Source: Frischella japonica
GTDB taxonomy: Bacteria > Pseudomonadota > Gammaproteobacteria > Enterobacterales > Orbaceae
Length of the DNA stretch: 64,000 nt
Direction of reading: 5' to 3'
NCBI RefSeq assembly: GCF_014489845.1
Contig: NZ_JABURY010000006.1
Coordinates: 248,001-312,000 of the forward strand
Of this stretch, positions 35,664 through 37,610 are shown in pieces. The notes below the pieces were generated by a model. It saw only the letters and a list, made by a program, of their open reading frames with translations, was not told the DNA's origin and made no database searches. The stretch's first letter is position 1. Every line of letters starts with the position of its first letter. Position numbers and translations under genes: made by a program.

Positions 35664-35685
35664 TTATTAAATAAAAGTGAAAACC

Positions 35686-36282
35686 ATGACAGTAAATCAA
35701 AGCCACTTTTTTGCACATCTTTCGCGATTAAAACTGATTAATCGTTGGCCATTAATGCGGAACGTTCGAACAGAAAACGTATCTGAACATAGTCTACAAG
35801 TCGCATTTGTTGCACACGCACTAGCAATTATTAAAAATCGTAAATTTAACGGTAACGTCAATCCAGAACGTATTGCATTAATAGCAATGTATCATGATAG
35901 TTCAGAAGTATTGACTGGCGATATGCCTACACCTACTAAGTATTATAATCCACAAATAACGGTTGAATATAAAAAGATTGAAAAAATTGCTCAAAATAAA
36001 TTAATTGCTATGTTACCTGAAGAATTACAAGATGATTTTCGCCCATTAATTAATGATGATTATTATTCAGAGCAAGAAAAGCATATCGTTAAACAAGCTG
36101 ATGCATTGTGCGCTTATCTAAAAACAATAGAAGAATTAAGTGCTGGCAATAATGAATTCAAATTAGCGGAACAACGGTTAAAGAAGACATTATCTGAGCG
36201 AAGTAGTCCCGAAATGGAATATTTTATGCAAATATTTGTCCCAAGTTTCAATTTATCACTTGATGAAATTACCTCAGAGTAA
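35686..36282 (+). CDS. yfbR: 5'-deoxynucleotidase YfbR
   Basis: 198 residues, HD-domain phosphohydrolase (EHSLQ and MYHDSSEVL carry the metal ligands) acting on dNMPs. Nearly collinear with E. coli YfbR. An in-frame GTG at 35677 would add three residues; the ATG at 35686 is preferred by family alignment. Confidence 0.95.
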
Positions 36283-36354: not shown

Positions 36355-36383
36355 TTGAATTTTTGCTTTCTTAGATGTATAAA
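36355..36383 (+). promoter_or_regulatory. Sigma70-type promoter of the small Lys/Ala/Pro gene
   Basis: TTGAAT (36355-36360), a 17-base spacer, then TATAAA (36378-36383). Predicted transcription start near 36390, about 50 bases before the ORF at 36443. Confidence 0.6.
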
Positions 36384-36442
36384 GTTAATGAATATTAAAT
36401 AATATTCAACCACTTAATTAAATCTTAACTAAGGATTTTAAA

Positions 36443-36523
36443 ATGGCTAAAACTCCAGCAACTAAAGATGCAGCAAAAGCACCAGCAAAAGCTCCAGCAA
36501 AAGCACCAGCTAAAAAGAAATAA
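36443..36523 (+). CDS. 26-residue Lys/Ala/Pro-rich protein
   Basis: Not a known family to me. Starts MAKTPATKDA, continues as AKAP repeats and ends in KKK; composed almost only of Ala, Lys, Pro and Thr, resembling a histone-H1 tail. Strong support for expression: good RBS (AAGGA 36431-36435, 7 bases before ATG), promoter at 36355-36383 and terminator at 36545-36568, so it is a complete monocistronic unit. The charge suggests nucleic-acid or membrane binding (inference). Too short for most gene callers. Confidence 0.7.
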   Translation: MAKTPATKDAAKAPAKAPAKAPAKKK

Positions 36524-36544
36524 TTTTTAGTATGATTAATAATT

Positions 36545-36568
36545 AAAAGGGCAGTATGCCCTTTTTTT
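36545..36568 (+). terminator. Terminator of the small Lys/Ala/Pro gene
   Basis: Stem AAAAGGGCA with TGCCCTTTT, three-base loop, T7. Located 22 bases past the stop codon. Confidence 0.9.
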
Positions 36569-36666
36569 ATATTTTTAATATTTATTGAAGATTTTTTGTT
36601 GTCGGTAATCACGAGCTAAAAATACTAAGCATAACCAAGTAAATCAAAATCGCAATCAAATTTTCG

Positions 36667-36690
36667 AAAAAGGGCATGCGCTCTTTTTTT
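36667..36690 (-). terminator. Terminator-like hairpin downstream of map
   Basis: AAAAAGGGC (36667-36675), loop ATGC, GCTCTTTTT (36680-36688) with one G-T pair. A/T runs on both sides let it work on either strand; for map (minus strand) the downstream T run is present. It resembles the hairpin at 36545-36568 and may be a duplicate of it. The DNA from 36691 to 36818 holds no gene. Confidence 0.6.
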
Positions 36691-36818: not shown

Positions 36819-37610
36819 TTATTTATGGGTTATGATTCTGGGAAATTGTTCGTTTGAACGCAAAGTTAAGATTTCAGCACCATCATCGGTAACCAGAATG
36901 GTATGTTCATATTGTGCTGATAATCCATGATCTTTAGTTTTGACAGTCCAACCATCTTTCATCGTTCGTGTACGCCAGTCGCCAGTATTTACCATTGGCT
37001 CAATGGTGAATGTCATCCCTGATTGTAAAATTACACCTCCATCGTCAGCATTGTAATGAAGTACTTGCGGTTCATCATGATAAATTTCTCCAATACCGTG
37101 ACCACAGTATTCACGTACACTTGAAAAACCAAAAGATTCAACATATTGTTGAATGGTTTTACCAATTTCACGTAATCGAACCCCTGGTCTTATAATTTTG
37201 ATCGCTTCATAAAGACTATTTTGTGTCACTTCACACAATTTCTTCCCCGTTATGGTAGGTTTCCCTGCAATATACATTCTTGATGTATCACCATGGTAAC
37301 CATCTTTAATAACAGTAACATCAATATTTAAGATATCGCCGTCTTTGATTTTTTTTTCAAAGCTCGGAATTCCATGACATACAACATCATTAATTGAAAT
37401 ACAGCTGGTATGTTGATAACCACTGTAACCAATATTTGCTGGAATTGCTTTTTGCACGTTAACGATATGTTCATAACATATTTGATCGAGTTCACCAGTT
37501 GAAATACCGGGTTTGACATAGGGTTCAATCATTTCGAGAACTTCGGCAGCTAATTTACCGGCAACTCGCATTTTCTCGATTTCTTCAGGAGTTTTTAATC
37601 TAATAGCCAT
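36819..37610 (-). CDS. map: Methionine aminopeptidase type I
   Basis: 263 residues. Removes initiator Met. All metal ligands are present at E. coli positions: D97, D108, H171, E204, E235, with catalytic H79. AAGGAT RBS lies before the ATG on the minus strand. Confidence 0.97.
   Translation of the reverse strand: MAIRLKTPEEIEKMRVAGKLAAEVLEMIEPYVKPGISTGELDQICYEHIVNVQKAIPANIGYSGYQHTSCISINDVVCHGIPSFEKKIKDGDILNIDVTVIKDGYHGDTSRMYIAGKPTITGKKLCEVTQNSLYEAIKIIRPGVRLREIGKTIQQYVESFGFSSVREYCGHGIGEIYHDEPQVLHYNADDGGVILQSGMTFTIEPMVNTGDWRTRTMKDGWTVKTKDHGLSAQYEHTILVTDDGAEILTLRSNEQFPRIITHK

Follow-up and report, generated by a model that had tools for sequence, protein, structure and literature searches.

A probable gene for a 24-29-residue peptide of lysine, alanine and proline repeats in Frischella japonica and four other Orbaceae

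Background

Can a tail rich in lysine, alanine and proline (K/A/P), otherwise seen in bacteria as an appendage of larger proteins, be a gene product by itself? The question is raised by a small unit on the plus strand, lying between yfbR and map (positions 36355-36570) in a 64-kb stretch of Frischella japonica DNA, which was analysed as a whole and is called here the window. A conserved gene encoding nothing but a tail would make it possible to test whether a K/A/P tail functions on its own, and the test object would be minimal, easily synthesised, and accompanied by genomes that differ naturally in having or lacking the gene.

Results

The features of the locus are listed in Table 1. The original prediction had described a complete small K/A/P-rich gene, provided with a TTGAAT-17-TATAAA promoter-like site, an AAGGA ribosome-binding site at good spacing, a 26-codon frame ending in KKK, and a terminator. 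Each component has been located: the two promoter hexamers are 17 nt apart, 7 nt separate AAGGA from the ATG at 36443, and the terminator stem is followed by a run of T. The predicted transcript measures about 180 nt. An inverted repeat at its expected start (36390-36407) comes in addition to what had been predicted.

Table 1. Positions of the small gene, its signals and neighbours, and of two further loci
Feature	Position	Strand	Remark
yfbR ORF	35677-36282	+	5'-deoxynucleotidase; NF003009 match
-35 element TTGAAT	36355-36360	+	4/6 consensus positions
Conserved core TTAGATGTATAAAGT	36371-36385	+	holds the -10 TATAAA (36378-36383); invariance across genomes
Inverted repeat/hairpin GAATATTAAATAATATTC, GAATAT-N6-ATATTC	36390-36407	+	at the predicted transcript start; arms kept in 5/5
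Leader TAACTAAGGA	36426-36435	+	holds Shine-Dalgarno AAGGA (36431-36435); invariant in 5 genomes
26-codon ORF MAKTPATKDAAKAPAKAPAKAPAKKK	36443-36523	+	TAA included; frame, selection, cross-genome comparison
Intrinsic terminator AAAAGGGC-AGTAT-GCCCTTTT and T run	36545-36570	+	stem 36545-36565; kept in relatives
Second terminator-like hairpin GAAAAAGGGCATGCGCTCTTTTTT	36666-36689		between the small gene and map
map ORF	36819-37610	-	type I methionyl aminopeptidase; TIGR00500 match
F. perrara PEB0191 copy	1935759-1935957	-	whole-gene DNA model match
dps locus of F. japonica	G000:C14:190197-190796		L134

Taken alone, the promoter-like site is no better than chance: 8 such sites were found in 2.2 kb, against 11.5 expected from shuffles, by a scan which demands T at the sixth -10 base, and thus leaves the TATAAA site of the small gene unlisted. 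The core TTAGATGTATAAAGT has one exact match in the window; allowing up to 3 mismatches gives 12, a number not above the chance level. Terminator-like sites exceed chance (5 in 2.2 kb, counting both strands, and one stem twice, versus 0.9 expected). The ORF is exceptional in composition, the joint share of K, A and P being 0.85. The runner-up among 535 frames of the window (ATG-to-stop, 20-60 aa, nested starts counted) scores 0.45, and the top share reached in any of 60 simulated windows of 64 kb (order-3 Markov) is 0.50. The unit as a whole stands above chance because it is conserved in four other genomes.

Searching for the ORF in other Orbaceae yielded intact copies in F. perrara PEB0191, Orbus hercynius, Orbus mooreae BiB and Zophobihabitans entericus IPMB12. 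The unit is hence present in five of the 44 Orbaceae genomes, including both of the Frischella and two of the four Orbus. These five genomes, which fall under three genus codes, all preserve the frame, start, Shine-Dalgarno, KKK-stop, -10 region and terminator, and the notion of a complete gene is borne out to this extent. The copies of both Frischella and both Orbus carriers are located downstream of yfbR, flanked on the other side by map in the former and by other genes in the latter; the Zophobihabitans copy resides elsewhere, behind a gene which we take to be lolE-like. The small gene was not found in the remaining 39 genomes, five of which are <90% complete: all 35 of genus code g2, including Gilliamella apicola (strain wkB1 among them), two Orbus (O. 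sturtevantii and O. wheelerorum), and both g4 genomes; Utexia brackfieldae is also among the negatives. A scan for short K/A/P-rich ORFs, covering up to 1,400 bases after yfbR in the 43 of 44 genomes having this gene, gave the four Frischella and Orbus copies.

Different searches of the 44 genomes converge on the same set. The C-terminal pattern A-P-A/S/T-K-K-K-stop, and a model of the leader region at E <= 0.1, both single out the five carriers, each with an intact ORF; a start pattern found four, missing F. perrara, in which the sixth residue is T. A DNA model of the whole gene matched the five genes at E 3.9e-38 or lower, the next place being the start of dps (E 4.8e-7). The models and the C-terminal pattern were built from the five carriers, and recovering these is by construction; the informative point is the absence of a sixth genome rising above the rest, in model searches whose stricter filters may lose weak matches. 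The leader model also served to look for a broken ORF with promoter and terminator kept, which would have spoken for an RNA rather than a protein, and none was found in the 44 genomes.

In a tree of LpxC and YfbR covering 25 of the 43 genomes bearing yfbR, carriers fall on either side of the midpoint root, and presence of the gene needs at least 3 changes. Either an old gene with several losses, or transfer, fits the tree. Since its gene was not found in 39 of 44 genomes, the small K/A/P protein is not a general nucleoid protein.

The five predicted proteins, MAKTPATKDAAKAPAKAPAKAPAKKK of F. japonica, MAKTPTTKEAVKTPAKAPSKAPAKKK of F. perrara, MAKTPAKKEPAKAPAKAPAKAPAKKK of O. hercynius, MAKTPAPAKKEPAKAPAKAPSKKK of O. 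mooreae and MAKTPAKAPAKEPAKAPAKAPAKAPAKKK of Zophobihabitans, are encoded by ORFs of 24, 26, 26, 26 or 29 codons, and length shifts by whole codons between an invariant MAKTP start and an invariant KKK end. Their net charge is +7 or +8, lysine recurs about every four residues, and most copies carry no large hydrophobic residue except the start methionine.

Changes accumulate at silent sites. Over the 10 pairs of copies, differences at codon positions 1, 2 and 3 number 30, 17 and 86, and pN/pS ranges from 0.00 to 0.44 in every pair, a measure less clean here than in ordinary genes, given the degenerate K, A and P codons and possible homogenisation of repeats. A binomial test of synonymous changes was applied to four of the 10 pairs, O. 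mooreae being left out. The ratio of synonymous to non-synonymous changes is 11 to 0 between O. hercynius and Zophobihabitans (P 1.2e-7), 11.5 to 3.5 between F. japonica and O. hercynius (P 7.5e-5), 6 to 5 between F. japonica and F. perrara (P 0.03), and 6.5 to 6.5 between F. perrara and Zophobihabitans (P 0.067); owing to their common history, the pairs do not make up independent tests. Read in either of the other plus-strand frames, the sequences show at most 2 synonymous changes, and no comparable signal. Selection on the protein appears clear for Orbus and Zophobihabitans, weaker for F. perrara. Purifying selection and a frame kept in relatives, the marks of a protein-coding gene, were both found, and on these comparisons we set the probability that the small K/A/P ORF is a translated gene at about 0.93.

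Signals around the ORF are shared as well. A TTGnnT hexamer was recognized by eye 16-17 nt upstream of the -10 in four of the five carriers, O. mooreae lacking it. Invariant in all five are AG-NN-GTATA-N-AG in the -10 region, GAATATT in the first arm of the inverted repeat, and TAACTAAGGA. The repeat begins in each case 6-7 nt past the -10, where transcription should start; the 6-nt arms GAATAT and ATATTC are separated by 6, 6, 6, 6 and 4 nt (by eye), the shortest spacer being that of Zophobihabitans. Spacer letters vary among genera, and each of the five hairpins folds, at -3.5 to -6.0 kcal/mol. No covariation was found in the inverted repeat across the five carriers, so that an RNA hairpin and a DNA operator are indistinguishable by sequence; the varying spacer mildly favours the hairpin. 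The idea of the palindrome as a shared operator was discarded: its second exact site in the window (24553) falls inside a coding sequence, presumably mraY, and the leader model matches no other place in the 44 genomes. The terminator stem is kept in relatives despite some substitutions in its two arms, reading GGGTC/GACCC in O. hercynius. The comparison shows the predicted -10 region, start hairpin, Shine-Dalgarno and terminator to be inherited together with the ORF.

The 10-mer TAACTAAGGA alone is not specific to the small gene. Followed by a start, it occurs at 12 places in 10 of the 44 genomes; five correspond to the small gene, and seven precede longer ORFs, among which dps and one which we assume to be gpmA-like. 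It is therefore in part an ordinary Shine-Dalgarno context.

At the level of the order (394 genomes), a profile search at E <= 0.001 matched family members only, namely F. japonica, F. perrara and O. hercynius, in a sample that may or may not have included O. mooreae and Zophobihabitans. At the class level (369 genomes), six matches besides F. japonica are weak and partial (E 0.006-0.08), each aligned over 13-20 of the 26 positions, and the frames concerned are 20-304 aa long. A start-plus-repeat pattern has 18 matches in genome contigs. Two are the small gene itself (Z. entericus and O. hercynius), the other 16 either longer proteins with basic tails or different frames, among them K/A/P-rich ones of 41 and 45 aa. 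Pattern matches were noted in two MAGs, from a planctomycete (a 77-aa basic protein) and from Flavobacteriaceae (one of 41 aa), as well as in alphaproteobacterial records, in proteins with K/A/P N-terminal tails which we presume to be HU-like and ATP-synthase-like (loci L087, L102, L088, L099 and L091 for these matches). A link to viruses was rejected, all seven viral matches of the pattern being longer proteins or short frames without the leader, including two 14-aa frames MAKTPAKAPAKKKC.

Nothing above cut-off was retrieved from Pfam, NCBIfam, PHROGs (2 of 5 proteins) or PDB (one protein); the sole family-library match, below cut-off, is PF04886 'PT repeat' with the Zophobihabitans protein (E 0.04). 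In the open-licence literature no paper was recognisable, by title or abstract opening, as concerning such a gene.

The whole-gene DNA model gives weak matches, of up to 33.3 bits, in all 44 genomes of the family at E <= 1, and matched 116 of 247 genomes of the order at E <= 0.01. Scanning 32 such loci for short K/A/P-rich frames revealed no homologous short gene in any; short frames at five of them (L069, L070, L078, L079, L081) are about half K/A/P, or slightly more, and lack a Shine-Dalgarno of this kind. Four further weak-match regions correspond to two dps starts and one adhE C-terminus, which are K/A-rich coding DNA, and to a region of O. sturtevantii with no such gene. These matches are read as noise of composition.

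Discussion

The unit may be regarded as a stand-alone, independently transcribed gene whose product, 24-29 residues long, would be disordered, strongly basic and wholly made of K/A/P repeats. The 5' hairpin would protect the mRNA and, together with the good Shine-Dalgarno, would ensure steady, probably abundant expression; that the hairpin stabilises this mRNA is put forward tentatively, at somewhat less than even odds. Presumably lacking a fold of its own, the peptide would coat polyanions with no sequence preference, be they nucleoid DNA, RNA, or perhaps polyphosphate, and play, as a separate molecule, the part that K/A/P tails have within AlgP, PhaF, Hc2, H1 or Dps. By analogy with these proteins, binding of polyanions or nucleic acids as the role of the peptide comes close to an even chance. 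At 26 residues the peptide is far shorter than AlgP or Hc2, and would bind weakly if not present in very large amounts. The fuller scenario, of a family consisting of the tail only, whose abundant members bind the nucleoid as separate molecules and whose gene is ancient in Orbaceae, with several later losses, is speculative, and we consider it on the unlikely side. Ordinary proteomics would hardly detect the peptide, because trypsin is expected to cut it into pieces of few residues.

The C-terminal tail of eukaryotic histone H1 has a K/A/P composition. The likeness to histone-H1 tails advanced in the original prediction holds for composition, and for composition only; no homology is claimed.

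Bacterial proteins with comparable repeats are larger. According to PMC9239181, AlgP carries a tail whose composition is called similar to that of H1, and peptides containing its KPAA repeats bind DNA in vitro. The tails of AlgP (AlgR3) and PhaF of Pseudomonas, also gammaproteobacterial, resemble the small peptide in being disordered, strongly positive and made of four-residue K/A/P repeats (PMC9239181). Yet, AlgP (352 aa) has a 195-aa tail with 25 perfect KPAA repeats joined to an N-terminal domain predicted helical, whereas in Orbaceae the tail of 24-29 aa is the entire protein, the repeat is KAPA, and no N-terminal domain is attached. As described in PMC2848022, Hc2 of Chlamydia is a DNA-binding protein with an abundance of basic/alanine pentamers; Hc2 and BpH1 of Bordetella share with the small peptide basic, alanine-rich short repeats, evenly spaced charge, and length variation by whole repeats. 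Hc2 differs in size (165-237 aa against 24-29) and in having Arg and Lys pentamers instead of four-residue KAPA repeats, and a chain of 165-237 aa holding basic/alanine repeats is not what was found here. Homology to Hc2 and BpH1 is not claimed, and 26 residues could not show any. To judge from its predicted sequence, the small protein is outside the AlgP and Hc2 families, since their architecture is absent.

The composition may also point to ribosomes or mRNA, on which the peptide would act as a small basic factor rather than on the nucleoid. High charge and the lack of aromatic residues equally suit rRNA, and RNA binding is reported in PMC2848022 to be stronger for Hc2 than for Hc1. The neighbours as a whole do not indicate translation, and we rate this role as rather improbable. 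Still less probable is that polyphosphate is the partner, bound or spaced by the peptide as by AlgP in P. aeruginosa, where positioning of polyphosphate granules requires the K/P/A repeat domain (PMC9239181). Polyphosphate kinase (PF02503) is encoded in 42 of the 44 genomes, all five carriers included, but ppk is equally common in genomes without the small gene, and gives no co-occurrence signal.

A short, cationic, proline-rich chain, patchily distributed in a family of insect-gut bacteria, could also be a secreted or released peptide, antimicrobial or host-directed. The sequence, however, has no stretch resembling a signal peptide, no immunity or transporter gene was noticed in the flanking stretches read, and neighbours vary among genera; the chances of such a role are slim. 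Equally slim are those of a small RNA, or a dual-function RNA, in which the ORF is secondary. The predicted size of the transcript, the 5' hairpin and the strong terminator suit an RNA, and the whole transcript folds with a z of -2.25, 4 of 200 shuffles being as good. Against this, changes are gathered at third positions and spare the amino acid sequence, the 5' UTR between hairpin and leader is divergent and variable in length, the leader without ORF occurs in none of the 44 genomes, and the window has no Rfam match at gathering score. A gene on the opposite strand is very unlikely: the 64-aa ORF 36418-36612 (-), open in F. japonica from a GTG start, with a GA/F-rich stretch and a terminator hairpin which is symmetric, is not conserved in the four relatives, where the frame is open for 36-45 codons, of which the first start codon leaves 6-22, a second antisense frame gives ORFs of 47 aa in O. 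hercynius and 35 aa in O. mooreae and has no start in the other three, and each of the five genomes provides the plus frame with Shine-Dalgarno, -10 region and KKK-stop.

Within the same genomes, close counterparts of the predicted peptide are the N-terminal tails of Dps, which mostly begin with MAK(T/S/A) and are rich in K, A and T. In the 38 of 42 dps matches in which the tail was read (G004, G008 and G021 were left out, and G041 has no motif match), it measures 23-66 aa, counted to the PTDLG motif; 23 aa is the length in many genomes of the Gilliamella code (g2), and the longest tail, of 66 aa and charge +13, is that of Zophobihabitans. The length of the Dps tail does not follow the presence of the small gene, being 40 aa in the two Orbus without it and 43 aa in the two with it. 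The hypothesis that the small gene is a split-off Dps start found no support: dps has another promoter region, the GAATAT repeat was not seen there by eye, and no leader homology to dps was detected by the leader model in the 44 genomes. The dps genes of F. japonica, Zophobihabitans and genome G028 have ATGGCTAA and an AAGGA in common, to which that of G028 adds the whole TAACTAAGGA, but the -10 core and the repeat are absent in all three (by eye). Upstream of dps, about 70-110 bases from its start, a TGGACA(T/C) motif recurs in three genus codes (L130, L131, L115), and is perhaps a promoter or regulator site. In Zophobihabitans, an AdhE-type C-terminus (L132, G043:C1:755500-756200; NF010378 match of the fragment, E 1.2e-19) runs into a K/A/P-rich tail.
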